A stretch of DNA of 20,065 nt from a virus. The translations under genes and the position numbers were made by a program. The DNA lies in IMG/VR virus record IMGVR_UViG_3300025645_000608, positions 1 through 20,065 of that record. One strand, 5' to 3'. Under the pieces are notes generated by a model, which had not been told where the DNA came from, did no database searches, and saw only the letters and a list, made by a program, of their open reading frames with translations. Shown in pieces: positions 2-17,148 of the stretch (positions are counted from its first letter, which is position 1; each line of letters opens with the position of its first letter).

Positions 2-772
2 AAAAAATCAGAAACAATAGTTAATGGAACAAATAATACAATTAATCAACAAGTTATTAATTCACTTACCGTTAATAACCCACTACCAGCTCTTGGTGGT
101 AAAGATGAACTTTCGGTAGAAGAACTTAGAAACCTAGTTAGATATAACTTCTCAGCACAAAATAGGGCAGTTACTATTGAGGATTATAAAAGTAGAATAT
201 CATTAATGCCAGGTGAGTTTGGTGTACCATTTAGAAATAATGTATTAGAAGAACAAAACAAAATATTAATTAGTATATTAACACTTAATGGTGATGGAAC
301 ACTTAGAACCTCATCAAATGAAACACTTAAGCAAAATATTTCAATATACTTATCTGATTATAGGATGATAAATGATTATATTGAAATCAATAATGGTAAA
401 ATTTATAATCTTGGTTTTGAGGTAGATTTATTAATCGATAAACAATTCTCTCAATCACAAGTAATATCCCAATCAATTACTGAAATAACATCCTTTTTCG
501 ATATCAATAAATGGGAAATGGGTCAAAACATCTATATAACACAATTAATAGAAATAATTAATAATGTTGCTGGTGTTTTAAATGTTGTTGATTTAAGAAT
601 ATTCAATAAAGTTGGTCAAGGACAATATTCTAGTAATGAAATTCCACAACCATATATTGATGAAGAAACTAGGCAAATTGATTTACTTAGTGAATATACA
701 ATATTTGGTGACCCAACTGGTATGTTTGAAATAAAAATACCTAGTAAAGATATTAAGGTTAGAGTTAAATAA
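2..772 (+). CDS. Baseplate wedge protein, J / T4 gp6-like (5'-partial)
   Basis: The reading frame is open from base 2 at the left edge, giving 256 visible residues, so the gene starts outside the window. The ATG at 206 is internal: conserved sequence lies upstream of it. Visible residues 33-62 carry a GGKDE..S.EELR segment followed by QNRAVTIEDY, the signature of the baseplate J family that includes T4 gp6 and P2 gpJ. The remainder, with a FDINKWEMGQ segment followed by an I..V.GV..V motif, fits the C-terminal part of that family. These proteins form the wedges of the contractile-tail baseplate and connect hub to fibre-bearing periphery. The frame ends in TAA, followed by a 49-base gap before the next gene. 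The family call is from memory of the motif; the phage versus injection-system origin cannot be settled from this piece alone. Confidence 0.82.
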   Translation, partial: KKSETIVNGTNNTINQQVINSLTVNNPLPALGGKDELSVEELRNLVRYNFSAQNRAVTIEDYKSRISLMPGEFGVPFRNNVLEEQNKILISILTLNGDGTLRTSSNETLKQNISIYLSDYRMINDYIEINNGKIYNLGFEVDLLIDKQFSQSQVISQSITEITSFFDINKWEMGQNIYITQLIEIINNVAGVLNVVDLRIFNKVGQGQYSSNEIPQPYIDEETRQIDLLSEYTIFGDPTGMFEIKIPSKDIKVRVK

Positions 773-821: not shown

Positions 822-1169
822 ATGGGATGCAATAGTTGTAAAGGAAAAAACAGAATATTAGAAAACGGAAATATGTCGGATAGGGATTTAAACTTCTTAG
901 AAAAGGCAGGTATTATGTTTGGTAAAATAATAGGGTTTTTAATTGGTGGGGTAATTCTATCGATTATAGTCGTACCATTTTCATTATGGACATTATTTAA
1001 AATAGTATTTTTAGATGAATCGATAGATGTGGTTGGTATAATGTCTGGTATTGGTAATCTACTTACACCAAAAAACGATAATAATGACGGTTATGTTGAT
1101 ATTGATAAAATAGAAGATTTGGATGAATATGAATTAATGGGTGTTGATGATATAAAAAATAAAAAATAA
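822..1169 (+). CDS. Small membrane protein with N-terminal Cys pair
   Basis: This 115-residue protein is not a family I recognise. It begins MGCNSCKGK, with Cys3 and Cys6 spaced as a CxxC. Residues 33-64 form a long hydrophobic stretch rich in Ile, Leu, Val and Gly, broken by Pro52, enough for one long or two short membrane segments. The last 50 residues are acidic and end in a Lys-rich tail. There is no signal-peptide-like n-region before the hydrophobic stretch. The start is preceded by an A/T-only leader without Shine-Dalgarno. It ends four bases before the giant 1412-residue gene, which also contains a hydrophobic segment beside a Cys cluster, so the two may act together at a membrane. 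Known structural proteins of a baseplate rarely contain membrane segments, so a role in holding or delivering the neighbour is a guess. Confidence 0.7.
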   Translation: MGCNSCKGKNRILENGNMSDRDLNFLEKAGIMFGKIIGFLIGGVILSIIVVPFSLWTLFKIVFLDESIDVVGIMSGIGNLLTPKNDNNDGYVDIDKIEDLDEYELMGVDDIKNKK

Positions 1170-1173
1170 CTAC

Positions 1174-4100
1174 ATGTCTAATAACAATATAAGGATAAAA
1201 ACGAACCCAGATGGTACTAATAAAAATGTAAACCTTAGTATAAATCAAAAATTCGACTTTATTGAGATTCTTTCTTTAAAGATTTCTCAAAGGGATGTCT
1301 ATAGACGTTTTTCTTCTGATTATGGTGTTGTTATTGGTAGGGTAATAATTAATAATGGGTTTGGTGTTCCAAATGCTAAGGTTTCAATCTTTATACCAAT
1401 TGATGATGATGATAAGTTAGACCCAGAGATTCTTGGGTTATACCCATTTGAGGTTGTTACTGATAGAGATTCTGATGGTATCCCATATAATTTAATGTCT
1501 AAAAGCCCCAATGGTAAAGACGAATGTCATACAACCATTGGTACATTCCCAAATAAAAGGGAAATTCAAGACAATCCAGAAATAAACAAAATATATCGTA
1601 AATATTATAAGTTCACCACAACAACAAATGAGTCTGGTGACTATATGTTATTTGGTGTACCAATCGGCACTCACTTCTTACACGTTGATGCAGATATATC
1701 AGATATTGGTATAATATCACAAAGACCATACGACCTTATTTCACAAGGTGTAGATAAAAATAAATTCTATTCAGCTAGTAAGTTTAAAAATAGAGAACAA
1801 GATACAAATATTACCCAATTAAAAAGTGTGTCCCCAACCAGTGTTAATGTTGCACCATTTTGGGGTGACATAGATGGTGGTGAAATTGGAATCACAAGAA
1901 CCGATGTTGATTTAAAAACAACTATAATTCCTTCTGCAATATTCATGGGTTCAGTTATTACTGATGATGAAAAAGATAGTGTTAATAAGAATTGTAGACC
2001 AAGAAAAAAATTAGGTCGTGGTGATGAATTGGTAACTGGTGAAGGTACTATCGAAATGATTCGATATAATACCGATGGTAGTATATCTAGATTTGATGTA
2101 GAGGGTGGTAGAGTAATAGATGAAAATGGAGCTTGGGCATATCAAATACCAATGAATCTTGACCATAAAATTACGGCTGAGGATGGTACACTAATACCTT
2201 CTGATGACCCAACAAAAGGTCTTCCAACCAGAGCAAGGGTTAGGTTTAAAGTAGATATGGACAACACTGGTGATGATGGTAGACTTAGGACTAGAGCCAA
2301 ATACTTAGTACCACATAACCCAGATAGTGACGATGATTCAGATTATTCGTTTAATTCAACAACTAGAGATAAATACTTTAAAGATTTATTCTGGAATAAA
2401 ATATATACGGTTACAAATCATATAACAAGAACACAACCCAACAACAATGTTGAAAATAGGAATTTTGTTGGTATGAAAGATGTGGATGAGGGTGGACAAC
2501 ATAATCCTATTCCATTTAATAAAATGGATACAAAAACAAACCCACTTTTTATTATTATTTGTATCATAGTGACAATCATAATTGCGGTGGTATGTTTAAT
2601 TAACAGATATATTATAATTATTATTAATTTCATTTTCAGTATTCTTAATGCAATATTAAAGTTCATATGTAAAGCGGTTTTTGCTGTCGCCAAGTTCATA
2701 GCCAGTGTTGGTGGTATTTTCCTAAGTTCTAGTAAAAAGAAGAAACTTAGGAGAAGAGGTTGTATTGGGTGTTGTGAAAATGATTCATGTACTAGTTGTG
2801 ATTGTAATGCTATTATTGATTTACTCGGATATATAACCATTGGTTGTGAGGGTGAACAATACGCACCTTGTGGTAGAGCTGGTGATGAAGGACCTGGTAA
2901 TTGTGGTGGTAATAATGGTAATTGGGTTGCTGGACTTACTTGGTTAAGAACACAAAGAAGACTTAGTTATGAATCTCAAACAGAACCAACAGAAGAAGAA
3001 CCTGGTAATTTATGTAACCCACCAATAGCAGATGATGAAATAGTGGATTTCCACTATGAAAATGATTGTGATTGTCACGAAAAAACACTTTTAGGTGGTT
3101 TATTCGAAATTGATGATGCTGGTGTATTAGATTGTATATTATTAACAATAGCAGAACAATTAAATGTATTTAAATTTGATTTTTATAATGACTGGCTAAA
3201 CGGTACTCTTTATCATTTTTTACTTAAATATAAACGTAAAAAAGATGGTGATGATAAATTCTGTAATCATGATTTAGATTGGAGTAATGATATTGTTGAT
3301 AGTTGTATAGAGGCAAAACCACAAGACCAAAGTGCTGATTATACTTGGAGTGGTATTGGTGCTGGTAATGGTGTTGACAGTAGTGACTATGTTGGTATAC
3401 GTCAAGGTTATATTAAAAGGACAGAAAGTGGTGAATTATTTTATTCTGCACACGCAACTGGTGGTAGACCATATAGATTATTTGCTACTGATATAGTTAG
3501 TCTTGGTAGTGTATTTGATTGTGACTGGCAAGGTATTCCTAAGATATACCCATGGCTTATTGAAACCACATATAATATACCACCACTTATCGCTGAGTAT
3601 AACCCAATCCCAAGTTCAGATGGTACACATGTGGTTGAGGTTTCTGGTTTTGATACTGGTTTTTGTAATAAAGATATTACACCGCTTATTGGTCATATAA
3701 ATTGTCTTGGGTTACAAACTGGTGCAAAACAATGTAACAACATAAATAGACTTAGTGAATTTGGTATGGGATTAGATGAAAATAGAACTGGTGGTTTTGA
3801 AACTAGTGATGCTAATAATGCAATAACAAATACAGACGTTGAAAACCCATTTGTTAGGGGTGCATTTATTTATGCTAATAAGAAGGATGAATTTAATTTA
3901 GATACAATTCCATTAACATATATTGATGGACCACTTACAACAGATATTTGGCAATATAATGATGAAAATTATAGATTATTTAGAAACCCAACAATTGGGC
4001 AAATCATATGGCAATTTGATAATTCATTTTATTTCTATTTTGGATTAAATGCTGGTAAAACCGCACTTAATAAACTTATAACTAATTTTTTCCCACCTTG

Positions 4101-5412
4101 TGTGCCAGAGACAGAAAATGATTTTTATGTTATAGCAACAGATATTATAGAAGATGACCTTGGTTCATCACCAACTGGAAAGATATTTATAGATGTAGTT
4201 GGTGGGATTGGTCCTTTTACATATATGTGGGTAGGACCAGTGGTTAATGGTATACAATACCCAGTAGTTAATAATACAAAAGATATTATTGAATTATTTG
4301 TTGGAACATATATTGTAACAGTAACTGATTCAATTGGTAATGTTGCAGAGGGTACTTTTATAGTACCTGGACCACCGAGTGTTAACTGTGAAACCCAAGC
4401 AACACCAATAACATCAAATGGTGCTAATGATGGTGAAATACTGGTTAATATATTTAGTGGTATAGCTCCATTTGAAATTCAATTATGGGATAACACCACA
4501 AACACATTAATAAGTACAAATAATACATCCAATAATAATTGGTTATATACTGGTTTAGCAGCTTTAGAATATAGGGTTGTTGTAACAGATAATGGAAATC
4601 CAGCAACAAGTTGTGAAAGTATAATTACTGTAACACAACCAGCCGCATTAAATGTGTTTGTTACTGGTACATCGGTTACTTGTTTTGGTTCAACCAATGG
4701 TACTGCATTTGCTACTGTTAGTGGGGGTCAACCACCATATAATGTATTGTGGTCACCTGGTGGTGAAACAATATTAAGTTTGAATAATTTAAGTGGTGGT
4801 GAATATACTGCTAATATTACAGATAGTATTGGTCAACAAGGTTCTGATTCATATGTTGTTACTTCTCCAAGTCAAATTAATTATAATGTCACTGGTCTTA
4901 GAAATATAACTTGTTTAGGTGATAATGATGGTAGAATAGTAATTAATGGTATTAGTGGTGGTAACCCACCATATACAATTAGATTAGAAGGTGGTGTGGA
5001 CGATATTGATGTTATATTTAATGGTACATCTCATACATTTGATAATCTTACATATGGTGATGAAAATAATTCTAACACATATGTCTATACGATAGAAGAT
5101 GAAATAGGGTGTCAAATAACAGACACAATTAACATATATAAACCAGATGAAGCTGTGGGTGGTGTCATATTTTATAATGGTTCAACTATTGTGGCATCAC
5201 CAACTGGTGGTTTCTCAGATACATTAGATGAAGATGATAATATTATTGGTTCATATAGTTATATCTGGAAGAAAGACGGTGTTACACAAACTGGTGAAAC
5301 GAATCAAACGGTTAATTCACCATCACCTGGATTATGGTTATGTATAATTAGAGATTCTAATGGTACTGGTCAATTCTGTACACATACAACAAATACACAA
5401 ACAGTAACTTAA
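1174..5412 (+). CDS. Giant tail/baseplate protein: carboxypeptidase-regulatory-like domain, hydrophobic segment, SprB-like repeats
   Basis: The 1412-residue product shows three parts. Residues about 50-178 resemble a carboxypeptidase-regulatory-like beta domain: GRVIINNGFGVPNAKVSIFI, then after an insert TNESGDYMLFGVPIGTHFL. Residues 457-517 are very hydrophobic (two or three membrane-length segments), followed by a basic run at 521-528 and six Cys between 530 and 544. Residues about 984-1325 hold four SprB-like repeats, with hallmark TCFG..NG, GG.PPY..., L.GGEY and TDS.G elements and P-rich junctions near 1068, 1156, 1232 and 1324; a partial fifth may follow. SprB repeats are known from surface adhesins of gliding Flavobacteria. 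An adhesive tail or baseplate protein is the likeliest reading. It starts four bases after the previous gene and ends two bases before the next. Functions of the middle region (180-450 and 545-980) are not recognised. Confidence 0.75.
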   Translation: MSNNNIRIKTNPDGTNKNVNLSINQKFDFIEILSLKISQRDVYRRFSSDYGVVIGRVIINNGFGVPNAKVSIFIPIDDDDKLDPEILGLYPFEVVTDRDSDGIPYNLMSKSPNGKDECHTTIGTFPNKREIQDNPEINKIYRKYYKFTTTTNESGDYMLFGVPIGTHFLHVDADISDIGIISQRPYDLISQGVDKNKFYSASKFKNREQDTNITQLKSVSPTSVNVAPFWGDIDGGEIGITRTDVDLKTTIIPSAIFMGSVITDDEKDSVNKNCRPRKKLGRGDELVTGEGTIEMIRYNTDGSISRFDVEGGRVIDENGAWAYQIPMNLDHKITAEDGTLIPSDDPTKGLPTRARVRFKVDMDNTGDDGRLRTRAKYLVPHNPDSDDDSDYSFNSTTRDKYFKDLFWNKIYTVTNHITRTQPNNNVENRNFVGMKDVDEGGQHNPIPFNKMDTKTNPLFIIICIIVTIIIAVVCLINRYIIIIINFIFSILNAILKFICKAVFAVAKFIASVGGIFLSSSKKKKLRRRGCIGCCENDSCTSCDCNAIIDLLGYITIGCEGEQYAPCGRAGDEGPGNCGGNNGNWVAGLTWLRTQRRLSYESQTEPTEEEPGNLCNPPIADDEIVDFHYENDCDCHEKTLLGGLFEIDDAGVLDCILLTIAEQLNVFKFDFYNDWLNGTLYHFLLKYKRKKDGDDKFCNHDLDWSNDIVDSCIEAKPQDQSADYTWSGIGAGNGVDSSDYVGIRQGYIKRTESGELFYSAHATGGRPYRLFATDIVSLGSVFDCDWQGIPKIYPWLIETTYNIPPLIAEYNPIPSSDGTHVVEVSGFDTGFCNKDITPLIGHINCLGLQTGAKQCNNINRLSEFGMGLDENRTGGFETSDANNAITNTDVENPFVRGAFIYANKKDEFNLDTIPLTYIDGPLTTDIWQYNDENYRLFRNPTIGQIIWQFDNSFYFYFGLNAGKTALNKLITNFFPPCVPETENDFYVIATDIIEDDLGSSPTGKIFIDVVGGIGPFTYMWVGPVVNGIQYPVVNNTKDIIELFVGTYIVTVTDSIGNVAEGTFIVPGPPSVNCETQATPITSNGANDGEILVNIFSGIAPFEIQLWDNTTNTLISTNNTSNNNWLYTGLAALEYRVVVTDNGNPATSCESIITVTQPAALNVFVTGTSVTCFGSTNGTAFATVSGGQPPYNVLWSPGGETILSLNNLSGGEYTANITDSIGQQGSDSYVVTSPSQINYNVTGLRNITCLGDNDGRIVINGISGGNPPYTIRLEGGVDDIDVIFNGTSHTFDNLTYGDENNSNTYVYTIEDEIGCQITDTINIYKPDEAVGGVIFYNGSTIVASPTGGFSDTLDEDDNIIGSYSYIWKKDGVTQTGETNQTVNSPSPGLWLCIIRDSNGTGQFCTHTTNTQTVT
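2542..2724 (+). other. Membrane-length hydrophobic segment inside the 1412-residue protein
   Basis: Codons 457-517 encode an almost uninterrupted run of Ile, Val, Leu, Phe and Ala with only a few charged or polar positions (Asn476-Arg477 and scattered Lys). It is followed by a Lys/Arg cluster at 521-528, which would favour a cytoplasmic side if inserted in a membrane, and by Cys at 530, 533, 534, 539, 542 and 544. The segment is seen directly; membrane insertion is inferred. Confidence 0.65.
4123..5148 (+). repeat. Four SprB-like protein repeats
   Basis: Codons about 984-1325 of the 1412-residue gene encode four units of roughly 80-90 residues. Units three and four begin with TCFGSTNGT and TCLGDNDGR. 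All contain a G-(I/G)-x-P-(F/Y) turn, and three end with a TD-(S/N) or ED-E-I-G acidic turn before a Pro-containing junction. The units are divergent at the DNA level, so this is an old duplication and not a recent tandem array. Boundaries are approximate. Confidence 0.72.
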
Positions 5413-5414
5413 AT

Positions 5415-7157
5415 ATGAATAAAAAGGTAACACATAGATTAAAGGGGGTCAATTCTAAATTAGATATTAATGAAAATATTAATTTAAGGGTTGGGTTAAC
5501 TAGTGATGAAAAAGACTTACCACTTGGTGAAATTAATCATGTTGTAGATGTTGGTGATTTATTTAATAAAGAAAGACAAACAACTGGTACATATAGAATA
5601 ATATTCACATTAACCCCTTTATTTAGTAACGTTTTATATAATGCTAGGGGTAATACTGGTTTTGGACCCTTCGGTAATTCATTTATTCCAAAAAATGGAA
5701 ACGGTTTAGAGACGTTTAGCGACCCTTTATTTTTAGAAGACCCCTATGATAACGATTTTGTGGGAGAGATTGAATTAACCTATGAAGAAGCCGTACAGAG
5801 ACATTTAAAAGAGGTTGATGGATGGTTTGGGTTTTATGACCCAGATTTAACTAAGGTTGATGATTGTAAATTTTATGATTTAGAACCAACTAGGTCTAGA
5901 TTTAATTTAAACTCAAATATGAAAACTAATTGGAGTTATATGATTACATATCCAGATAGTAGTGATGACACACATGTGGTTGTGAATGGTGGTTTATTAA
6001 TCATCAATGCAGAAGCTGTAATAATTGGTAACGTACCAATGGTGGCTTTGGGTACATCGGTTAAACATGGACTTAAGAATGGTGATACTGTTGTACTTAG
6101 TAGTATGCCAGATGTTGATTATGAAGGTACGTTTATTGTTAAACGACTTGGTTTAGATAATGGTGATAATAAAGATAATTATTTTGTTATTGATGTAGAC
6201 CCAGATGATGTACCAACTGGTATATTATTCACAAATGGTAGGATGAGAAGAAGTGTTAGTGGGCAATTATCAGAATATTATATTAGGAAATTTAAATCGA
6301 TTTCAACATCTGAAATTAATCAAGAAATATATCCATTGGCTTATAGTAAAACAATATTTAATGATAGCCTTCAACAATTAGTTTTTAATAATGATATTGA
6401 TATATCTAACTTAACAGATAACTTGGGTAGACCACTATCAGAATTATATTTAACATTTATCAAAAAAAATAATTCTTTGATAGTGGGTGATAATATATTT
6501 GGTGTTGTTAAGTCTGGGTTTGATTTAGAATTTATACCTGGTAATTTAACTGAAGATGTGTCTAATGCTAGACGTATACATGATGGTACTACAAGTGACC
6601 CATTTACATCACAAACACCTTTAGAAATTAATATAATATCTAATACTGGGGTGTTTAATGGTGATGTTGTTGAGTATAATAAATTTGAGGTAAAAGAAAA
6701 AATACTATCAACGGTGTTACATAGATTTAACACATTAGGTAGGGAATCAACATATAATGGTGTTGCAGATAGTCCAAGAAGAGAGGGATATTTATATAAA
6801 CCATTCCATTTAATAAAAATACGAGATTTTTCATCTTATATAGAACAAGGTGATATTTCAACAGATGAAATACCTAGTTATGCTGAAGATTTAGGTGATG
6901 GTAGATGGTTATGGAGAGATTTATTAGATATTGGGACACCAAATAATGAAAATGAAGTATTAGATTACCCATTTACTAACGGAAACCATTACATCCACCA
7001 AAATCTATGTTTTGGAACACTTAGACAAGACCCATTTGGGGAATATGACCTATTTTATAATGGTATTAAGAGTGAAAGTGATTATTCACCTTCAGACCCA
7101 ATAGGTAATGGAATAACAGATAATTTTATAATAAAAAAATCGGGAAATGAATGTTAA
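5415..7157 (+). CDS. Unrecognised tail-associated protein with FCCH-like beta domain
   Basis: I do not recognise the 580-residue protein as a whole. It has few Cys, no signal peptide and no membrane segment, and is rich in beta-type and Asn/Asp/Gly turns as expected for a virion protein. Around residues 208-268 it has VKHGLKNGDTVVLSSMPDVD followed by a G-x-F-x-V strand and an F-x-I-D strand. This 'H-G-L-x-N-G-D-x-V' layout resembles the FCCH-like beta-barrel inserts seen in various phage tail proteins. The start ATG lies two bases after the preceding TAA in an A-rich context. Its last 11 bases overlap the next gene, which indicates co-translation. Its place between J-like and I-like genes supports a baseplate or tail role. 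Confidence 0.6.
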   Translation: MNKKVTHRLKGVNSKLDINENINLRVGLTSDEKDLPLGEINHVVDVGDLFNKERQTTGTYRIIFTLTPLFSNVLYNARGNTGFGPFGNSFIPKNGNGLETFSDPLFLEDPYDNDFVGEIELTYEEAVQRHLKEVDGWFGFYDPDLTKVDDCKFYDLEPTRSRFNLNSNMKTNWSYMITYPDSSDDTHVVVNGGLLIINAEAVIIGNVPMVALGTSVKHGLKNGDTVVLSSMPDVDYEGTFIVKRLGLDNGDNKDNYFVIDVDPDDVPTGILFTNGRMRRSVSGQLSEYYIRKFKSISTSEINQEIYPLAYSKTIFNDSLQQLVFNNDIDISNLTDNLGRPLSELYLTFIKKNNSLIVGDNIFGVVKSGFDLEFIPGNLTEDVSNARRIHDGTTSDPFTSQTPLEINIISNTGVFNGDVVEYNKFEVKEKILSTVLHRFNTLGRESTYNGVADSPRREGYLYKPFHLIKIRDFSSYIEQGDISTDEIPSYAEDLGDGRWLWRDLLDIGTPNNENEVLDYPFTNGNHYIHQNLCFGTLRQDPFGEYDLFYNGIKSESDYSPSDPIGNGITDNFIIKKSGNEC

Positions 7158-7992
7158 TTCGTATAAAATATTAAGACCAAACATATCTGGTAGTACTGCG
7201 ATATCTATTAATGTACCATTTAGTCAAACACCTTGGCTTGCTGGGCAAGAGGATATTATTAAGTCTAAATTTGTTGATGTTGAGGTTGCTAATAGTATCA
7301 CACCAGTTGTTGATTATGAAAAGGCTAAATTTGTACCTAAACAAACATTTAATACTGTCTCAGTAAATAATGTAATTTATAGTTTATTCTTTTTAGATAA
7401 CGGTGCCTATAACCCGAATAGTTATTGGTCTAGTATTGGTTTTATCCCAGATGATTTCAAATTTAAAAAAAATTCATTTGTTAAGTCTTTTCTTAGATTA
7501 GATTTTTATGATTCCGATATAACATCATCACAAAGGTTATTATTTTTTATCACCATATTTCCTAGGTTTTTAAACAATGATTATAACGAGGATGGGACAC
7601 CACCATTACCATCTAATTATGATATAAAATTCACACTTGGTGACACACGTAAAATTAGGGATGCAAATGGTGAGGGTTTTAATCTTTATCATTTTAAAGA
7701 TGAGGTATTACCAACAGTACCAAAAGAAATATTTATGAGGGCTAGTTTTCAAAACGCTAAGACTGGTATAACAACTAGATTCATGTCAAGTAATGACCCA
7801 AACATTAATATTGAAGATTTAATGAAGACAACTAATAATACCACATATTTGGTTAATAAACTACATACTAAGTATTTATTAACAAGAGAAGTTAATGGAT
7901 ATTATTATGATATTGTTAATGAATATTCAGATAATGTTGGAACGGGGCAAAATGATTTTGCTATTAGTCTATATGAAATAAGTACATCATAA
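7147..7992 (+). CDS. Unrecognised phage structural protein
   Basis: The 281-residue protein matches no family I know. It is soluble in appearance, rich in Phe, Tyr and Asn with alternating hydrophobic residues typical of beta structure (for example the segments near residues 75-90 and 113-135). It has no Cys and no recognisable catalytic motif. The chosen ATG overlaps the end of the preceding gene by 11 bases; the next in-frame Met is far downstream, so this start is favoured. Its own stop shares an A with the next start (TAATG), a tight coupling. A virion component of the same assembly as its neighbours is inferred from position only. Confidence 0.6.
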   Translation: MNVNSYKILRPNISGSTAISINVPFSQTPWLAGQEDIIKSKFVDVEVANSITPVVDYEKAKFVPKQTFNTVSVNNVIYSLFFLDNGAYNPNSYWSSIGFIPDDFKFKKNSFVKSFLRLDFYDSDITSSQRLLFFITIFPRFLNNDYNEDGTPPLPSNYDIKFTLGDTRKIRDANGEGFNLYHFKDEVLPTVPKEIFMRASFQNAKTGITTRFMSSNDPNINIEDLMKTTNNTTYLVNKLHTKYLLTREVNGYYYDIVNEYSDNVGTGQNDFAISLYEISTS

Positions 7993-8852
7993 TGGAGATA
8001 ATCAAAAGAAAAATAGTTTTAGATAACTATACTAGTAGAAAAGAAGATTCTTGGGGTCAAATGACCGCAACTACTTTCTGTATTAATGTTTTTATCACAC
8101 AAGATGGTGACGATATGGGGACGTTCTATGATTTTGATTTACCAGTTTATAATAATATAGTAAAATATCGCCCACTAACCAATAAATTAAATGACCTGGG
8201 TCTTAATTTTGAATTTATGAATGGTGGTGTATTCGAAACCAATATTTATAATTCGTTACCAAATACTAGACACCCAGATAGGGTACATAGTGATTATTTT
8301 GAAGATGGACATAGGGTGAGTGGATTAACAGAAGATAGGTTAGAAGCTGTTAAATCATACGATACTAATTTCACATATAAACCAGGTTTTGATATGAACA
8401 CTGAAGACTATGTGGATTATAATGGTTTTGTTATTAATGGTGTATCTAGAGTTATTAGTGATACCAATAATCAAAACCCAATAGATTACTCTGAAGATGT
8501 TGATGTTGATGACCAATTTTTTGGTTTACCAACTCAAGATACTGGTCTTATGTTAAGAACATATAAAGACACAATAAGAACCGTTGAAACTGATTTAGGG
8601 CTTAACGCTATCCCAGTTACTGAAATATACTTCAGAGGTCAAGGATTTAATGAAACCAATAGTATTTTAACCCCATTGTTTAAAATGGAATATTTATTTG
8701 GTATAACAAGTGCACCAGAAGTACAAAGTGATGTATTTATAGATAGGGGTAGAAATACAATCCTACAGAGTCACTTACAATTGGGGGATATAACCAACAT
8801 CAATGATTTAACCAATTACGGTAATGGATATTATAATATAATTAAAAACTAA
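7992..8852 (+). CDS. Unrecognised phage structural protein
   Basis: The 286-residue product is not recognised. The ATG at 7992 overlaps the previous stop as TAATG, fixing the start by translational coupling. The protein is acidic and Asn/Asp-rich, with one Cys near the N-terminus, no signal peptide and no membrane segment. The C-terminal third contains a compact, Gly- and aromatic-containing block (RGQGFNETNSILTPLFKMEY) followed by FIDRGRN, which looks like the best-conserved part and would be the place to start a homology search. It ends five bases before the next gene. Membership in the baseplate cassette between the J-like and I-like genes is the only functional clue. Confidence 0.6.
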   Translation: MEIIKRKIVLDNYTSRKEDSWGQMTATTFCINVFITQDGDDMGTFYDFDLPVYNNIVKYRPLTNKLNDLGLNFEFMNGGVFETNIYNSLPNTRHPDRVHSDYFEDGHRVSGLTEDRLEAVKSYDTNFTYKPGFDMNTEDYVDYNGFVINGVSRVISDTNNQNPIDYSEDVDVDDQFFGLPTQDTGLMLRTYKDTIRTVETDLGLNAIPVTEIYFRGQGFNETNSILTPLFKMEYLFGITSAPEVQSDVFIDRGRNTILQSHLQLGDITNINDLTNYGNGYYNIIKN

Positions 8853-8857
8853 AAAAT

Positions 8858-9820
8858 ATGGCAACTGGAACATACGGAACAATAAGACCAGCAGACATGT
8901 CACCATCTGATGTTGATATAACAGTGTTTTATTCTGAAAATAGAGAAACAACAAACACAACTGTGTTTAAATTAGATTCAAGTAATCTACAAGAAATAGA
9001 GAACCCAATCAATGCAACAACAACTGGTGGGGGTAATACTAGATTATCAATACCAGTACCAGTACCAGAAGGTTTTGAAATATTTGGTGGACTTTATAAA
9101 TTAAACCTACCAGTAGATTCCTTTAGTTCTAAGGGTATTTACTCAATAGTATTTAAACCAGTTGAAATAAGAACTAAGATAGTTGATTGTGGTGTTTTAT
9201 CTGCATTCCCAGATGTTAAGGGAATTGTTTTAGATGGGTCCGACCCAAATTTAAACACATTTGTAGATAAATTAGAGAATAATAATCTTATTGGTTATAG
9301 AATAGAATATTTAAATTCAAATAGGTCTGTTACAGATAGAAAACTACGTAACTTCTTTAAGATTGTTACATCAAATAATAGGTCTGAACCAATTAACCAA
9401 AATATAACTAACACAAGTCAAAAAGCCATTAGATATAGATTTAATGATAACTCTACATTAGTATTTTGTACAGTATCACCATCATCATCATCTAATGTAA
9501 CACCCAACGTATTACCATTCATTGGGTCACCTAATCAAGACATAATAATCACCAACACATTCTTCAGTCCATTTGTTCTTGAACTTGAATTAGTTGATTA
9601 TGATATTGAATCATTGGCTATCGGATTATTCGGTAATCAAACAAAAAGTCTTGAAGATGGAATTTATACGATATATAACTTTAATACAGATATTTATAAA
9701 CAATATAACATATATGAAATTAAGGATAGATTTACTGGTAAACCATTATTTGAAATCAAAGAAGATAAACTTAATAATATAGATTTTACCAAAGCATTTA
9801 ACAATATATCAAGCGTATAA
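8858..9820 (+). CDS. Unrecognised phage structural protein with PVPVP tract
   Basis: This 320-residue protein starts at an ATG in the frequent local context AAAATATG, five bases after the previous stop. The N-terminal 60 residues are Thr/Asn-rich. Residues 64-71 read SIPVPVPE, the first of several Pro-Val tracts in this region. It is followed by a beta-type domain (about 72-140) with a Val-Asp-Cys-Gly-Val element at 109-113 or close to it, and a second beta-rich half. No signal peptide, membrane segment or catalytic motif is visible. Its end is three bases before the large I-like gene, so it is likely co-expressed with it and may be a baseplate partner. The function is unknown. Confidence 0.6.
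   Translation: MATGTYGTIRPADMSPSDVDITVFYSENRETTNTTVFKLDSSNLQEIENPINATTTGGGNTRLSIPVPVPEGFEIFGGLYKLNLPVDSFSSKGIYSIVFKPVEIRTKIVDCGVLSAFPDVKGIVLDGSDPNLNTFVDKLENNNLIGYRIEYLNSNRSVTDRKLRNFFKIVTSNNRSEPINQNITNTSQKAIRYRFNDNSTLVFCTVSPSSSSNVTPNVLPFIGSPNQDIIITNTFFSPFVLELELVDYDIESLAIGLFGNQTKSLEDGIYTIYNFNTDIYKQYNIYEIKDRFTGKPLFEIKEDKLNNIDFTKAFNNISSV
9053..9067 (+). repeat. Pro-Val hexanucleotide tract (PVPVP), copy a
   Basis: The bases are two and a half copies of the hexamer CCAGTA, encoding PVPVP at residues 66-70 of the 320-residue protein. The same hexamer recurs in three other genes of this window. A six-base unit changes length without shifting frame. Confidence 0.6.
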
Positions 9821-9823
9821 AAT

Positions 9824-12658
9824 ATGGCTGCAACAACAACAACGAATACAACCACAACCACAACCAATACTACAACATCTGGAACAACCAGTAATTTAGT
9901 TAAGGTTATCGGGTACGCTAAAAGGGAATTTTTCGTTGATGGAATTGAATATAGAAATTTTACAGATGACCTAGTAGGTAACCAACAAACTGCTAGTAGT
10001 GATGGAAATGGTGATAGTGTTTTAACACTTGGAAACTTTGTTACTACAACCAATTTTGATGGTAGATTAACTAGATTATATAGTAGTAAGAAATATAGTG
10101 ACTTTCAAACACTTGATACACTTAACCTAACAATAGATAGAGCTAATAGTTTATTAGGTAACAACATTGTTACAACGATAAATATGGATAATACCGATTT
10201 ATGTAATTTTGCATTCTTTGGTTCTGCAACTGAATATATTAGGGTTAGCTTAGAAAATATAATAACAAATTGGCCAGCTTCTTTATATTTAACACCATTA
10301 AGAGATTTTGGTAATACAACGGTGGTCGGTCCTACAGTTATTCATTATAATTATAGTCCAACAACAAATGTTTCTGCCTTTTCGGTTGATACTAATTTTA
10401 TCAATAACAAATTTAATATGGTGTACCAAGAAAATGGTACAATCGTGGATACATTTAATGAAACAAATGATTTACGTAACTTCACAATTAATTATCTAAA
10501 TTATGTAATTGATTTTAGTGGTTCCACATACCCAATAATAAATTATACAGCACCAACTAGTGAAACTGATGATGTAATGTATATAGAGGTTCTTGGTGAA
10601 GCATTTCCTTTTACTGGTACTAGTTTAAACCTTACATACCATATAAGACCTAAAGATGAATTAGTTGAAGAATTCTTTAACTCATTAAATGGTTTTGAAA
10701 ATAACCTTTTAAATAGGCTTGTAATACCTAAATATACATCGGAATATAATTATAAAATTGAAGATGAAAATGGTGTGGTTATTAGTAGGAATAGAAAACT
10801 TACTTGGCCAATAACAGATGGTTATAATATTGATTTTGATACTAATGAGTATATTAATTTTGTAACACAGTTGGTTAATATTAGTAATAGTAAAGATGGT
10901 TTAGAAACCGACCTAATGGTTAGATTCTTAACATCGTCATCTATTTCAGATTTCGATTCAGTACCACAATGTGATGGTACACAAGAAGAAACATCTGGAC
11001 AAAAAATGAATAAGACCCTACATATTTATGGAAGGGAATTTGATGAAATTAAAAAATATATAGATGGTATATCATTTGCCAATGTGGTAACATATGATAA
11101 GAAGAATAATATCCCAGACCAGTTGGTTAAATACTTAGCCAGAACAATGGGTTGGGGGTTAGTTTCGTCTATTGTAGATAATGATTTGATATCATCTTAT
11201 TTAGTGCCACAATCCACAAGTTATGGTGGACAAAGTAGAGGGTTAACCCCACAAGAGGCAGATGTTGAAATGTGGAGAAGATTAATACTTAATTCTGCTT
11301 GGATTTGGAAATCTAAAGGAACTAGAAAAGCAATTGAGTTTTTCTTTAAATTTGTTGGTGCACCAGATGGGTTAATTGCTTTTAATGAATACATTTATAT
11401 TGTTGATGAACCAATAGATATGAATTTATTCTATTCAGTATTAGAAAACAATAATCTAGATAAAAATTTAGAATTATATAATATAGATGAAGACGGTTAT
11501 CCAACATTACCAAAAAACACTAGTGATATGTATTTCCAAAAGGGTGGACAATGGTATAGAGAAACTGGTGGTGAAAACACAACACAACATATATCAACTG
11601 GGAATAACCCACATATTGGTCCTTATGATTGTGGTGTTGAATATATTAACCAATTAAGAAATATAATACCTAACTTTAGACCATTTACAATAGCGACAAC
11701 TACAACAGAAACAACAGATGTTGACCTATTTGTAAATTACAATGCTGGAATATTTAATAATTATGCTGGTGATTTTTATGTTGATGTTACAGATTTAGAT
11801 GGATTCGATATTAGTGATGAAATAACAATAACAAATGAAGTTATAACAGACCCATGTCCAGAAGAAGATAAAACAAATTGTGGTTGCCCAGTACATATTA
11901 ATGATGAAGCAATTAAAATTAGTTTTAGTAGGGAAACACCAATAGTAAACACTTGTGATTATTCAAGTATAAATTATAATGAAGATGTTAATATGTGGAT
12001 ATTTGCATATACACTTTTTAGATTGGATGGTATCGCAATACCAGCCCCATCTCTAACAATATATGCACCAAGAGAATGTTGTAAACCATTACCTGGGTGG
12101 AGTTATTATTATGCACAATATGAATTATTAAATCCACCAACACTTGCAGAAACAGAAGCAAAATTATCGGAAGATATTTCAATACCAGTACCAGTTCCAA
12201 CTGTTGCTGTGTTTGACCCTAATCCATTAAATGATGGTTTAATATGTTGTAAATCTGAAGGTGTTGGAAATGATAGAGGAATAGAAGGTTGTGGTTGTAC
12301 AATATCTTGTCAATGGCAATTATTTGGAACAGACTTAAAAGATATGTATATTGATGGTGGTGTTAGTAAGTTAGTAGGTGTACCAGTACCAACAAATGAT
12401 ATATTTGTAAAATTTATTGACCCAGAAGGAAACCCTAGATTGGTTAATGAAGCAGATTCTTGTTTTTGTGTTACAAAATATACAACACCAGTTGTTATGT
12501 TAGACCCATATACAAATAAAACGGGATATGCTTGTAGAATAGATGGTACTCAAGCCCAACAAAACATTAATGTTGGGTATTTATTTGATATACATCAAAA
12601 TAGGGCAAAAGGAATAATAGATTGTGATGAAATTAACCCAATAATACAAAAAGTATAA
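9824..12658 (+). CDS. Baseplate protein with P2 gpI-like / phage tail protein domain and Cys-rich extension
   Basis: The 944-residue protein opens with a poly-Thr tract (residues 4-18). Residues about 397-520 contain the pattern of the phage tail domain related to P2 gpI: an amphipathic helix near 402-415, then IPDQLVKYLARTMGWGL at 430-446, then WRRLILNSAWIWKSKGT at 484-500 and a helical AIEFFFKFVGAP. In that family the core reads 'LP.LA..LGW ... R.L...A...W.KGT...I....'. The family is a baseplate wedge component. A Thr-rich linker at about 625-631 separates it from a Cys-rich C-terminal part (C686, C688, C752, C753, C808, C809, C823, C825, C829, C880, C882) that also holds two Pro-Val tracts at about 788 and 853. 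The region 30-390 is not recognised. The stop overlaps the next start as TAATG. The gpI-like call is from the motif only. Confidence 0.7.
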   Translation: MAATTTTNTTTTTTNTTTSGTTSNLVKVIGYAKREFFVDGIEYRNFTDDLVGNQQTASSDGNGDSVLTLGNFVTTTNFDGRLTRLYSSKKYSDFQTLDTLNLTIDRANSLLGNNIVTTINMDNTDLCNFAFFGSATEYIRVSLENIITNWPASLYLTPLRDFGNTTVVGPTVIHYNYSPTTNVSAFSVDTNFINNKFNMVYQENGTIVDTFNETNDLRNFTINYLNYVIDFSGSTYPIINYTAPTSETDDVMYIEVLGEAFPFTGTSLNLTYHIRPKDELVEEFFNSLNGFENNLLNRLVIPKYTSEYNYKIEDENGVVISRNRKLTWPITDGYNIDFDTNEYINFVTQLVNISNSKDGLETDLMVRFLTSSSISDFDSVPQCDGTQEETSGQKMNKTLHIYGREFDEIKKYIDGISFANVVTYDKKNNIPDQLVKYLARTMGWGLVSSIVDNDLISSYLVPQSTSYGGQSRGLTPQEADVEMWRRLILNSAWIWKSKGTRKAIEFFFKFVGAPDGLIAFNEYIYIVDEPIDMNLFYSVLENNNLDKNLELYNIDEDGYPTLPKNTSDMYFQKGGQWYRETGGENTTQHISTGNNPHIGPYDCGVEYINQLRNIIPNFRPFTIATTTTETTDVDLFVNYNAGIFNNYAGDFYVDVTDLDGFDISDEITITNEVITDPCPEEDKTNCGCPVHINDEAIKISFSRETPIVNTCDYSSINYNEDVNMWIFAYTLFRLDGIAIPAPSLTIYAPRECCKPLPGWSYYYAQYELLNPPTLAETEAKLSEDISIPVPVPTVAVFDPNPLNDGLICCKSEGVGNDRGIEGCGCTISCQWQLFGTDLKDMYIDGGVSKLVGVPVPTNDIFVKFIDPEGNPRLVNEADSCFCVTKYTTPVVMLDPYTNKTGYACRIDGTQAQQNINVGYLFDIHQNRAKGIIDCDEINPIIQKV
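9833..9877 (+). repeat. Poly-threonine tract at the N-terminus of the gpI-like protein
   Basis: Codons 4-18 are thirteen Thr and two Asn, built from ACA, ACC, ACG and ACT triplets, with the local pair ACAACC repeated three times. It resembles the tract at 20013-20057 in the fibre-like gene. Such tracts usually act as flexible, possibly glycosylated linkers and can change length in frame. Confidence 0.75.
12185..12199 (+). repeat. Pro-Val tract (PVPVP), copy b
   Basis: The bases encode PVPVP from residue 788 of the 944-residue protein, in the context SIPVPVPT, and use CCAGTA with one CCAGTT. A shorter VPVP follows at 12380-12391 in the same gene. Confidence 0.55.
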
Positions 12659-15600
12659 TGGCTGGAAATAGAATAAATATAGAATATGATACTTGTCAAA
12701 CTAGACAAGAATATACGGATGCGGGTTATTCAATAGTAGAAAATATTGATGGTACGGTATCTATCTATGATGCTAAGTTAAACCCAACAATTGGTCATGA
12801 AAATAGAGCTTGTTGTACTGCATTGGGATATAATTTCGATTCTATTAATCAAAAATGTAAATGGACACCTGGTGAAATACAATTAACTAATACTGAAGTT
12901 GAAAGAACCTCAGTACCAGTACCAGTACCAGAGGATTCTTTTAAAATAATACTAAACCCAGATGGTAGTTCTAGTACATTCTTTGGTGTTGATGATGATG
13001 AAACCGCTTCATTACTTATTTCATTTGATTACATGCTTAATTTTGATTGTAAAGAGATTTTAGGTGCTGTTGCAACGGCTAGGGTAGATGAAGAAAAAAA
13101 ACTCGCTACAACATCAACCTTGTATGACCAATGTGTTGAAGAAAGAAATACTAGCATTGCTAGATACCAATCATTAATTGATTTAGAATTAGGTTATGGT
13201 TTCCCATACATATTACAATGTGGTGATTCAAAATCTAAAGTTGAAATAATCAATGATGGATTAGTTATTTGGGAACAAATATTAGGAACTAACGTGTATA
13301 ACCAATGGTTAGCAAGTAGTGGTACTGATACAAATCTTTATGATTGTAAACAAGTAGAACAAATGTTAACTTGGCCATCTAAAGTACCAGTAGCTAAACA
13401 ACCAACATTCGTTGGATTATATGATAGGTTAGAATCTGAAAATAAAATAGCACAATATCAAAGTGAGATTGCAATTATTGAAAATGAAATAATAACCATA
13501 TGTGAACCATTAAAAATTCCAGCACCAATACCAGTACCAGTGCCAGTGCCAACTGGTGATTGTGTTAATTATGTTAGAATTTTCGAAGAATTAGAAGTTT
13601 ATTTTAATCTTGAAAGACTTAATACTACAACTGGTTTATTAGAAACATTATACCAAGAACCAATATTTGATATACCATTTAATTCGTTATCTGATTATAT
13701 TGTAGATAATTATGGTAAAACTGGTTTATTAATAAATGGTGAGAATGGTGATTGTAGTACGTTAAATACTGCTTTTGCTGAAGAACTATTAGTACAGTAT
13801 GGTATAAATCATGGATTGACTGTACCTGGTTTTGGTGACCCAAATCAAAGGTTAATAGACATAGATACAACTAATGAAATACCACAAGAAATTATCGATA
13901 TATTTAATGATTGGTTTAGAACTTGTTGGTTACGTTATGTTGTAAGAATTGATGATGATACACCATATGATAGTGGTGTTGGTAGACTTGTACAAGATTT
14001 ACCATCTGTATTAGATTTAATACGTAATAGGGAAATTAATATTTCTTTAACTATTAAGAATGATTGTATGGATTTTTCAGTACTTCTGGATAACATTAAA
14101 TTAGAAAAAGATGGTTCTATAGTGACAAATATTAATACTATTATATCTGAACCACCATCGTTTGATATTAAAAAGGTGTTAGATAATAAAAAATCTTGGT
14201 TAGCAAATGAAACTACTGAAAATAGAGAATTTGACCTACAATATAGGGTAACCGATTATAATATTAATCACCATAAACTGGTTATTAATTCTAAAGAAAT
14301 GGACTTAAATTTAAGCCCAGCTAGTGCTATTGAAACAGATGTATGTTGTTTCTCCAGGTCTAACCCATCAATATTTTATTTTGATTCTGAACTATGTGAG
14401 GTTAGTGGGGTAACTTACGACACCTCAACATCTGCTATTGAACCAATCGTAACTCAATATACCAGCTCTGGATATACATATCAAGGTGTAACGGATTGTC
14501 AATTAGAATTTACATTAGCAAACCAGTTACCAGTTGATACTGATATTTATGCAATATTTGATACAACAAGTATGAGTGTAACAGATGGTGAAGCAGCATC
14601 AGATGCACTTAATGAATGGTTTGATTCATATACAGCATCAACCCCTTCTCATGAAGGTAGTTTATATATCATACCACATGGTACTGAAGAATGGATTGAT
14701 TATGCAAACAGACTTTACACTGGTGCAATGCCAGTTAGTACGGGTCCTTGGACTGGTATTACTCAAGCACCACCTCTTTTAAATACTGGTGGATGGGTAG
14801 CACCCACAAATTTAGTTGTGTTAGCATTTGTTGATGAATCCAACCCAGGTTATCACTCATCAAAGACCTCAGATGGGTTTAATGTTGTTGTACAACCAAC
14901 GGCTTCATATCTTAGTAATCTTGACACATTTACTGGTACAACACACCCTTCATTTACATACTTTAAAGGTGTTGTTTACCCAATAGTTAAAAATATATTA
15001 ACTCATGGTGGTGCTTTGGTGTTACAAACTATGGCAGCAATTGAAGCTAGACTATTAACCGCACCAGAAATTGTTGCAACAAATACAACTGTAGATGTAT
15101 CATTACTTCTAACAGAAAATGCATATATTGGATTACCAGCGATGAAAGATTATGGTTGGAAAGGTGTTTATGATAAAACTAGTCCAGCATCCGAGGTGTT
15201 TAATTCTGAATCTTTTGGTGAAGAATTAGATGTATTATTATTAGGTGATGTGGATTTAACAACTGTATTAGTTACACCACCAGTAGCAGATGGAAATATT
15301 AATCTACAATCAGTTGGTTGTTTTAATATTAACTCTTGTGTTAATAGTAATGGTGCGTATGATACATCAGATGAAGCTATACAATCAACAATAACTGAAT
15401 ATATAGCATCTGGTTATGTATACCAAGGTATTGTAGATTGTCAATTACAATTTCAAAAAGCAGATGAATTACCATTAGATGCAGACATATATGCTGTATA
15501 TGATACAACAAGTATGAGTGTAACAGATGGTACTGATGCATCAGCAGCTTTAACTAGTTGGTTTGGTGATTACCAAACTGCACACCCAGATTATACGGGT

Positions 15601-16881
15601 AGTTTATATATTATCCCACATAGGGATGAACGTTGGTTATTGTATGCAGAAAGAATACGTCTTGGTATTATGGATGTAACTGCTGTAGATGGTTGGGAAC
15701 TTATTGGTGTTATCCCACCCGCTTTCAATACTGGTTTATGGGTACCACCTAACAATTTGGTTTTATTATCATTTTGTGATGAATCTTGTGCACCTAACTG
15801 GTCATGGAGTACTGATTTTAATTATCACTCTTGTGATATTTCAGATGGTTTTGGTGCTGGAGTAAAACCAGGTGATGAGGCACAACCAACAAGTTACTAT
15901 ATAACAGATTATAATGTTTTTACTGGTTCAACATATCCTAATTATGATTTCTTTAGAGGTATATCTTACCCAATTCCAGAAATTGGAGAATCATTAGGAC
16001 ATGGTGAGGCATTGGTATTACAAACTTTGGCTGCAATAGAGGGTACTGCTCTTACACAAGCAGAGATAGACGCAACAAATACACTAGCAGATGTGTCACC
16101 ACTTTTAAGTGATAACCCATATAGTGGAATGACGGCTTTAAAAGAATATGATTGGTATGGAGTTTATGATAAAACAACTCCAGCATCTGCTGTATTTAGT
16201 TCTGAATCTTTTAATTCAGAACTGAATGAATTAATACTAGGTGTTACTGATGGTGAAGTAATACTTGTTGATGCACCAGGTGTTGATGATAATGTTACTT
16301 GTGTTGATTTTACAGAAAAATTAAGTACAGAATTAATAGATGTTAAGAATAGGAAAACAATACAAAGTTACCCAACTCTTAAATCTTTATACGAAAGATA
16401 TCTTAATAGGTCAACAGAATATTCAGATAATCAATCATCTCAATTTAATTACACAAATACAGATGTCTTTGGACAAACAATTGGTAATTACTGGGTAGAT
16501 TTAATTGAACAAGTAGTACCAAGTACAACACTTTGGAAATCAACATATGAATATAAGAATACTATTTATGACCAACAAAAATTTAGGTATAAAAAGAATA
16601 CAACGTATTTCTGTACCTCTAATGTTGACCCATTATTGATTGCATCACAAACGGGTGTTACGGTTACAACAACAACACTTACACGAACTAATCCAAATCA
16701 AAAAACAATAGATACAAGTACCACATCAAGTTGTGATGGTGTTTGGATTAAGAATTATGATATTGGTTCTGAATTTATGGGTACAATAGAAATAACTGGT
16801 AATAATAGAGAAAATGAAAAAACAATATATAACCAATCAAGTAAAACAATAAGTGAGGATTATTATTATGATAATCTTTAA
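12658..16881 (+). CDS. Giant baseplate/adhesion protein with two tandem vWA-like domains
   Basis: The 1407-residue protein starts at an ATG sharing its A with the preceding TAA. The N-terminal part has a Cys module (C52, C53, C67 around FDS) and two Pro-Val tracts (residues 86-91 and 288-298). A second CC...FDS...C module (C563, C564, C580) leads into two tandem copies of an about 310-residue domain, 587-900 and 901-1207. Each begins YDTS..AI...Y..SGY.YQG, then DIYA(I/V)(F/Y)DTTSMSVTDG, a helix, GSLYIIPH, and later an LxF-x-DES strand. The beta-strand plus DTTSMS (D635, D949) resembles a von Willebrand A metal-site motif but lacks one residue of the usual DxSxS spacing. After 1207 comes a distinct C-terminal domain with IGNYWVDLIEQVVPSTTLW and DQQKFRYK, a block that looks conserved. 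vWA domains commonly mediate protein-protein or surface adhesion; that role here is inferred. Confidence 0.65.
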   Translation: MAGNRINIEYDTCQTRQEYTDAGYSIVENIDGTVSIYDAKLNPTIGHENRACCTALGYNFDSINQKCKWTPGEIQLTNTEVERTSVPVPVPEDSFKIILNPDGSSSTFFGVDDDETASLLISFDYMLNFDCKEILGAVATARVDEEKKLATTSTLYDQCVEERNTSIARYQSLIDLELGYGFPYILQCGDSKSKVEIINDGLVIWEQILGTNVYNQWLASSGTDTNLYDCKQVEQMLTWPSKVPVAKQPTFVGLYDRLESENKIAQYQSEIAIIENEIITICEPLKIPAPIPVPVPVPTGDCVNYVRIFEELEVYFNLERLNTTTGLLETLYQEPIFDIPFNSLSDYIVDNYGKTGLLINGENGDCSTLNTAFAEELLVQYGINHGLTVPGFGDPNQRLIDIDTTNEIPQEIIDIFNDWFRTCWLRYVVRIDDDTPYDSGVGRLVQDLPSVLDLIRNREINISLTIKNDCMDFSVLLDNIKLEKDGSIVTNINTIISEPPSFDIKKVLDNKKSWLANETTENREFDLQYRVTDYNINHHKLVINSKEMDLNLSPASAIETDVCCFSRSNPSIFYFDSELCEVSGVTYDTSTSAIEPIVTQYTSSGYTYQGVTDCQLEFTLANQLPVDTDIYAIFDTTSMSVTDGEAASDALNEWFDSYTASTPSHEGSLYIIPHGTEEWIDYANRLYTGAMPVSTGPWTGITQAPPLLNTGGWVAPTNLVVLAFVDESNPGYHSSKTSDGFNVVVQPTASYLSNLDTFTGTTHPSFTYFKGVVYPIVKNILTHGGALVLQTMAAIEARLLTAPEIVATNTTVDVSLLLTENAYIGLPAMKDYGWKGVYDKTSPASEVFNSESFGEELDVLLLGDVDLTTVLVTPPVADGNINLQSVGCFNINSCVNSNGAYDTSDEAIQSTITEYIASGYVYQGIVDCQLQFQKADELPLDADIYAVYDTTSMSVTDGTDASAALTSWFGDYQTAHPDYTGSLYIIPHRDERWLLYAERIRLGIMDVTAVDGWELIGVIPPAFNTGLWVPPNNLVLLSFCDESCAPNWSWSTDFNYHSCDISDGFGAGVKPGDEAQPTSYYITDYNVFTGSTYPNYDFFRGISYPIPEIGESLGHGEALVLQTLAAIEGTALTQAEIDATNTLADVSPLLSDNPYSGMTALKEYDWYGVYDKTTPASAVFSSESFNSELNELILGVTDGEVILVDAPGVDDNVTCVDFTEKLSTELIDVKNRKTIQSYPTLKSLYERYLNRSTEYSDNQSSQFNYTNTDVFGQTIGNYWVDLIEQVVPSTTLWKSTYEYKNTIYDQQKFRYKKNTTYFCTSNVDPLLIASQTGVTVTTTTLTRTNPNQKTIDTSTTSSCDGVWIKNYDIGSEFMGTIEITGNNRENEKTIYNQSSKTISEDYYYDNL
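12913..12930 (+). repeat. Pro-Val tract (VPVPVP), copy c
   Basis: Three exact GTACCA hexamers encode VPVPVP at residues 86-91 of the 1407-residue protein, in the context S-VPVPVP-ED. The context resembles SIPVPVPEG in the 320-residue protein. Confidence 0.6.
13519..13551 (+). repeat. Longest Pro-x tract (PAPIPVPVPVP), copy d
   Basis: Eleven codons alternate Pro with Ala, Ile or Val at residues 288-298. The third-position changes (GTA to GTG) show it has begun to diverge as DNA while keeping the protein pattern, which suggests selection on the amino acids. It follows a predicted helical stretch and precedes a Cys. Confidence 0.6.
14416..16278 (+). repeat. Tandem duplication of vWA-like domain (two units of about 314 codons)
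   Basis: Unit A covers 14416-15357 and unit B 15358-16278. The conserved motifs sit exactly 942 bases (314 codons) apart. The proteins clearly align over most of the length, but DNA identity is patchy, with one perfect 31-base match (14559-14589 and 15501-15531) over the DTTSMS motif. Unit B has gained Cys residues absent from unit A, near 1040-1060. Confidence 0.82.
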
Positions 16882-16899
16882 AAATAGATATTTATAGAT

Positions 16900-17148
16900 A
16901 TGCCATTATTAATTAGAAATATAAACGGAAAAGTATTAGATGACCTAACTACTCGCATAACACACCTTGCGAATGTTACTGGTTCATTTGGTTATGGAAC
17001 ATGGTTTATGGTTGGTAATGTAGAAGCTTTCAACCAAGACTTTAGAAAGGTATTATCAACTGAGGTGTTAAAAACAAATACCAAACAAGGTTTAATAATA
17101 AATAATAATATAGAATTTAAAGAATTCAATATAGAAAATGTGTGTTAA
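16900..17148 (+). CDS. Small unrecognised protein between vWA-like and fibre-like genes
   Basis: An 82-residue protein that I do not recognise. It has no membrane segment or signal peptide; the middle is Gly- and aromatic-rich (FGYGTWFMVG at about 30-39), and the C-terminus ends in Cys. An 18-base A/T-only spacer precedes the ATG. Its TAA overlaps the next ATG as TAATG, which makes it part of the same translated string and supports it being a real gene. It could be a small baseplate or fibre-attachment factor or a chaperone for the neighbour, but nothing in the sequence decides this. Confidence 0.6.
   Translation: MPLLIRNINGKVLDDLTTRITHLANVTGSFGYGTWFMVGNVEAFNQDFRKVLSTEVLKTNTKQGLIINNNIEFKEFNIENVC

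Follow-up and report, generated by a model that had tools for sequence, protein, structure and literature searches.

Phage structural proteins of five classes carry immunoglobulin (Ig)-like domains, which in many cases can be dispensed with and are believed to help adsorption (PMC9022992). The Ig-like classes of Fraser et al., as given in the same source, are Big_1/Big_2, I-set and FN3, alongside Hoc. Gut phages of Bacteroidota gain epithelial binding from Ig-like proteins (PMC13370021), and gliding-motility proteins are required for the adsorption of some Flavobacteria phages (PMC13288928, PMC7345892). These four papers treat systems other than the phage core family described here, and a search of the literature for phage SprB repeats turned up a single paper, which concerned toxins. 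The attachment of large Bacteroidota phages to their hosts is little understood. Here, we describe a phage protein encoded in the IMG/VR virus record IMGVR_UViG_3300025645_000608. The window, meaning the whole stretch of DNA analysed, is the entire record (20,065 bases, linear, probably a fragment). It holds an intact open reading frame (ORF) of 1412 amino acids at 1174-5412 on the + strand, with an ATG start. The product ends in a chain of SprB-type Ig-like domains, and this chain, a removable C-terminal accessory of a conserved phage protein, evolves faster in protein sequence than the core to which it is joined. We consider it reasonably probable that the protein is an accessory adhesin at the periphery of the baseplate, possibly with a membrane-active middle, of a large T4-superfamily myophage whose host most likely belongs to the Bacteroidota.

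The core and its C-terminal chain are arranged as follows, with values for the units taken from a SprB-unit hidden Markov model (HMM):

1174..4101, + strand: conserved core, residues 1-976 (about 975); 52% mean family identity, AlphaFold2 model, BFVD match
4171..4368, + strand: SprB-type unit 1, residues 1000-1065 (1e-12)
4399..4641, + strand: SprB-type unit 2, residues 1076-1156 (4e-09)
4666..4869, + strand: SprB-type unit 3, residues 1165-1232 (3e-17; also the best Pfam stretch, 1166-1197)
4903..5145, + strand: SprB-type unit 4, residues 1244-1324 (1e-12)
5185..5394, + strand: weak fifth Ig-like unit, residues 1338-1407 (3e-04; beta-sandwich predicted)

The domain identity of the chain is established by these analyses. 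An earlier note, made by a model from the letters alone, had named SprB repeats, and the Pfam SprB profile PF13573 bears it out, matching the protein over four stretches with a whole-protein E-value of 1e-22 and 79.9 bits, above the curated cut-off of 28 bits. The SprB-unit HMM, which was trained on 165 units outside the phage core family (151 from Bacteroidota genome or bin loci and 14 from the huge phage LR756502), found four clear units and a weak fifth; no other window protein matched it. The four units of the note therefore stand, but their motifs do so only in part, as the full TC/GG/TD set is confined to unit 3 (TCFGSTNG, GGQPPY and TDSIG) and unit 4 (TCLGDNDG, GGNPPY and EDEIG). Units 1 and 2 are degenerate, being without TC and carrying GGIGPFTY and SGIAPFEI, and the weak fifth unit is an addition. 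The note had also proposed an Ig or beta-sandwich fold as a check, and the AlphaFold2 model of the chain, built from an alignment of 43 tails, is nearly all-beta and made of beta-sandwiches, with a mean predicted local distance difference test (pLDDT) score of 92.5. A fold search of the PDB with this model returned a fragment of the Aureispira grappling-hook adhesin GhpA on top (E 4.5e-13) and several more GhpA fragments next, with a Foldseek probability of 1.00 and template modelling (TM) scores of 0.24-0.39 across the multi-domain chain. The tail tip of phage T5 was also among the matches.

The relationship between chain and core was followed across relatives. An IMG/VR scan identified 232 of these, on contigs of up to 380 kb; 76 loci were fetched and 44 representative full-length proteins were compared. 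SprB was present in 42 of 43 representative tails, and mean identity was 52% in the core and 27% in the tail. The Ig domains are separable from the core, since the chain is absent from two relatives: the L060 protein ends at residue 954, directly past YFYFGLSPGKTALDKMNNTFFATCKTKI, with the next gene overlapping its stop by four bases, while the L083 protein terminates at the same core motif (YFYFGL...FF) and is followed immediately by the next gene. Relatives labelled as rumen-derived carry tails of 352 (L079), 1422 (L081) and 834 (L082) residues; Pfam SprB matches were absent from the first and third, and the L081 tail has at most one weak unit. Between close relatives, the synonymous substitution rate (dS) is similar in core and tail. 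The ratio of nonsynonymous to synonymous rates (dN/dS) is higher in the tail than in the core by a factor of 1.6 to 4.4 in all listed pairs, bar one with almost no synonymous change; these pairs often share members, and the values describe a trend rather than a tally of independent events.

This pattern bears on what the chain is for. It could serve the baseplate structurally, as a spacer or clamp, with the essential function residing in the core with its hydrophobic helix (described below), as the higher conservation of the core and the existence of tail-less forms might suggest. A clamp would not be expected to vary so widely in length, domain number and type, or to show an elevated dN/dS, and we regard a non-adhesive role as quite improbable. 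The different tails of the rumen relatives would also fit a chain that retains the particle mainly on mucus, polysaccharide in the environment or some other surface instead of the host cell, along the lines of the bacteriophage adherence to mucus model. Such niche binding finds further support in a match to the Hoc-like phrog_2973 (5e-08) and in the epithelial binding conferred by the Ig-like proteins of Bacteroidota gut phages (PMC13370021). However, the SprB-tailed relatives could not be linked to mucosal sources here, hosts themselves carry SprB units in their surface adhesins and it is the host that the baseplate faces, which together make a niche-binding function unlikely.

The earlier note had proposed that the repeats mimic the host's own adhesin and were captured from it, a proposal treated here as one of recent capture. 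When 148 phage units and 151 host units were all compared with one another, 42 of 43 copies of unit 1, 28/30 of unit 2, 39/43 of unit 3 and 16/18 of unit 4 found their best match in the same-position unit of another phage, as did 8/14 of the weak unit 5. With phages above 55% core identity removed, same-position matches still accounted for 41/43, 22/30, 25/43 and 12/18 (units 1-4); below 45% core identity, host units were frequently the best match. Distances between units tracked those between cores (Mantel r of 0.74, 0.82, 0.54, 0.80 and 0.46 for units 1-5; equalled in 0 of 999 permutations). The SprB chain is thus vertically inherited with the core and old in the clade: same-position phage matches and congruent distances place it in the clade's common ancestor, so that any capture would be older than a clade whose cores have diverged to ~41% identity. 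A capture from a host may have preceded that ancestor, at a depth beyond the resolution of these comparisons.

Recent host capture of the repeats was therefore rejected on the strength of the nearest-neighbour and distance tests. The fuller proposal, in which a recently captured segment acts as a mimic that binds the ligands of the host adhesin or docks on the gliding machinery, can point to genuine SprB units with a GhpA-like fold and to the need of some Flavobacteria phages for gliding proteins during adsorption (PMC13288928; PMC7345892). That published link concerns host gliding proteins as receptors, not phage copies of them. In addition to the orthology by position and the congruence with the core, equal dS in core and tail indicates that close relatives have not swapped tails, and the window protein lacks a type IX secretion system (T9SS) signal; we judge the proposal very improbable. 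A T9SS-exported adhesin was also rejected as an identity for the protein, as no T9SS C-terminal sorting domain was found in it with Pfam. No signal peptide is apparent by eye at its N-terminus (MSNNNIRIKTNPDG), which is hydrophilic. CHU_C was absent from eight relative contigs, and Por_Secre_tail matches in two relatives, one of them below the cut-off, are internal and were dismissed as Ig-like resemblance rather than sorting signals.

The remaining features of the protein and its surroundings are:

2..772, + strand: gp6-type baseplate wedge protein, C-terminal part only, as its gene runs across the window start (phrog_6 2.8e-12; phrog_219 4.3e-08)
822..1169, + strand: small membrane protein of 115 amino acids with an MGCNSCK... 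N-terminus, a hydrophobic stretch (hydropathy 2.55) and an acidic C-terminus
1324..1692, + strand: CarboxypepD_reg-like (prealbumin-like) region, residues ~51-173, with PF13620 in homologues and a ~70-residue insertion
2542..2718, + strand: hydrophobic helix of 59 residues, residues 457-515, with invariant N477 and N485 (AlphaFold2, alignment)
2740..2892, + strand: Cys-rich stretch 3' of the helix, residues ~523-573 (sequence and family alignment)
5415..12658, + strand: orf580, orf281, orf286, orf320 and a gpI/gp7-like protein of 944 amino acids, in the same order in nearly all relatives

The gene lies inside a virion structural operon, as would be expected of an Ig-decorated phage structural protein. 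The baseplate context given by the earlier note is confirmed by the upstream wedge protein, which in tblastn also matches the baseplate wedge protein of Flavobacterium phage immuto, as well as Microcystis phage Mel-JY01. Downstream, the 944-residue protein is gpI-like and shares the KSKGTRKAIEFFF motif with proteins of immuto and Mel-JY01. The operon runs from the gp6-type wedge through the small hydrophobic ORF, the core gene, orf580, orf281, orf286, orf320 and the gpI-like gene to orf1407, an order kept in nearly every locus with a long enough contig. One relative of 274 kb has a terminase whose nearest matches, at ~28-31% identity, are those of LR756508, Mel-JY01, immuto and T4-like cyanophages. 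Operon order and terminase affinities place the source in an uncultured clade of large myophages of the T4 superfamily. Prophage or cellular homologues were considered in a GTDB scan, which gave eight loci; tail genes were present in each of those that were examined past the core gene, and these are phage contigs in bins. The last gene of the order, a 1407-amino-acid ORF at 12658-16881, matches phrog_37948 (2.9e-122) and Cellulophaga phages phi4:1 and phi17:2; it contains two similar copies of a ~300-residue domain that has 41% identity to a Cellulophaga phage structural protein.

The core was modelled by AlphaFold2 with a pLDDT of 74 and a predicted TM score of 0.70. Its one structural relative in BFVD is A0A8S5LA66 of Myoviridae sp. 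ctPuP5 (Foldseek E 3.3e-73, TM 0.69, 30% identity), while a fold search of the PDB gave weak pilin, CNA-B and prealbumin-like matches only (TM <=0.11 on the query). An NCBIfam search gave no match, and a promoter and terminator scan was close to chance. At the N-terminus, the earlier note had proposed a carboxypeptidase-regulatory-like domain. The GRV...ESGDYMLFGVP element that it cited is present at residues 55-163, but the window protein itself falls under the Pfam cut-off for CarboxypepD_reg PF13620 (15.8 bits against 32.3, E 0.018-0.037, half of the profile only). When homologues were scanned singly, 29 of 30 matched at E<=0.1, the strongest at 6.3e-07, so the domain is likely a divergent CarboxypepD_reg split by an insertion. 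The weak score is probably due to the ~70 residues that part the first strand region (51-75) from the second (147-173).

Overlooked by the earlier note were the hydrophobic helix and the neighbouring small membrane protein. AlphaFold2 predicts residues 457-515 as one helix (pLDDT mostly 77-91), the hydrophobic stretch is present in all 44 representatives (hydropathy 2.3-3.7) and N477 and N485 are invariant alignment columns within it. In 78 of 82 loci the core gene is immediately preceded by a hydrophobic ORF, which begins with MGC in 68 of those 78 and mostly with MSC or MSGC in the remainder, giving an N-terminal pattern of M(G/S)CxCK across loci; the window copy had no match in PHROG. Four loci gave no such hit (L079, L083, L084 and L085). 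In L079 the ORF filter had missed a short ORF that contains MACACK and a hydrophobic stretch, while the distant relatives L083, L084 and L085 have no small hydrophobic ORF upstream and their core proteins are also without a hydrophobic stretch (maximum 0.68-1.07). The helix and the small membrane protein thus co-occur, with a contrast that amounts to about two independent cases, as L085 is partial and shares one organisation with L084. The core homologues of L084 (9953-12139) and L085 (4294-6045) are short, lack both the helix and a SprB tail, and lie divergently beside a sheath-like gene rather than 3' of gp6.

Asparagine in hydrophobic helices favours oligomerisation, and we infer that N477 and N485 could drive oligomerisation of this helix. 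In one extension of this idea, an adhesive SprB-type spike would be joined to a bundle of helices that is lined with Asn and inserts into membranes. During contraction, helices from several subunits would enter the host envelope together with the small M(G/S)CxCK protein, anchoring the baseplate or forming a passage for DNA; we see this as possible but rather unlikely. The strong hydrophobicity of the helix and the membrane-protein neighbour that accompanies it could also point to a non-virion membrane protein of the infected cell, such as a baseplate-assembly platform or a superinfection-related factor, that sits in the tail operon by chance. The strict position within the baseplate operon speaks against this, as do the minimal homologues L083 and L084, whose lack of any hydrophobic stretch implies that the core does not need a membrane, and we hold it to be extremely improbable.

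A Bacteroidota host, which the earlier note had implied, is probable. Shine-Dalgarno-like elements precede 0/11 window genes, and those of the core gene number 5 among 74 loci against 3.9 expected from shuffled leaders, the leaders being A-rich. Absence of Shine-Dalgarno elements together with A-rich leaders is a known Bacteroidota pattern. The matches to Cellulophaga phages point the same way, as do strong SprB matches in 11 of 61 sampled genomes from the phylum of G002 (a Bacteroidota bin) and in 0 of 14 control genomes. One relative (L080, QCKH01000004.1) was found on an 84-kb contig from a single-cell genome of Prochlorococcus; this reflects contamination or else hints at a wider range of hosts.

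In the accessory-adhesin reading that we favour, the core (residues 1 to ~975) would attach to the periphery of the baseplate and the five SprB-type Ig-like domains would project outward as a flexible accessory adhesin. The chain may bind weakly and repeatedly to polysaccharide on or around the host surface, resulting in faster reversible adsorption. The helix and the small upstream membrane protein could form oligomers that insert into a membrane, be it the host envelope at infection or the membrane of the producer cell at baseplate assembly. We infer adhesion, ligand and membrane insertion, as well as location in the virion. Several points weigh against this proposal. Because the core profile matched no solved structure by sequence, attachment to the wedge and the putative baseplate position rest on gene order. 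A 59-residue hydrophobic helix is odd in a protein assembled in the cytoplasm, and, to our knowledge, no ligand has been established for SprB repeats. Furthermore, the bin labels of relatives are mixed, including Prochlorococcus, Mycoplasmatota and Clostridiales, which keeps the host assignment at probable; we read these labels as phage contigs binned or sorted alongside those cells.

A different arrangement is encoded by LR756502, a 642-kb huge phage with a terminase. Its 1670-amino-acid protein (locus L089, LR756502.1, 502108-533358; coordinates 12271-17283 of the locus) starts with a signal-peptide-like segment and combines 13 SprB repeats (6e-95) with a PKD domain and a T9SS signal of the CHU_C type (5e-14), making it a candidate phage-encoded adhesin exported via the host type IX system. 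Two further CHU_C-matching ORFs lie at 418085-418297 and 597571-597774 of LR756502.1. Whole-protein homology to the window protein was rejected, as the match is solely via SprB repeats in a different, secreted-type protein. The two are alike in being phage-encoded and bearing SprB repeats, and differ in that the LR756502 protein has a T9SS type-B signal and a signal-peptide-like start but no baseplate core.

In summary, this baseplate family is widespread and bears a removable, fast-evolving putative adhesin built from a domain type of the host phylum itself, and natural relatives with other tails or none make the adhesion and membrane ideas directly testable once a relative is cultured. The closest counterpart of the core, A0A8S5LA66, is an uncharacterized protein with no assigned function whose likeness is one of core fold, and the comparison is limited to that part. 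With the SprB repeat of gliding adhesins and Aureispira GhpA, the chain shares the repeat profile PF13573 and a predicted beta-sandwich; unlike them, it comprises about five units, lacks a T9SS sorting domain or signal-like N-terminus and is fused to a baseplate-operon protein. As with the Ig-like domains of phage structural proteins in the classes of Fraser et al. (PMC9022992), the chain is accessory, separable and C-terminal on a structural-operon protein. It differs in being SprB-type, outside the three superfamilies summarised there, in its core with a long hydrophobic helix and in being encoded in-frame with no frameshift. The feature is well defined and follows a known principle, that of Ig domains on a phage structural protein, while its Ig type falls outside those three superfamilies and its conserved core family, with the hydrophobic helix, is uncharacterised.

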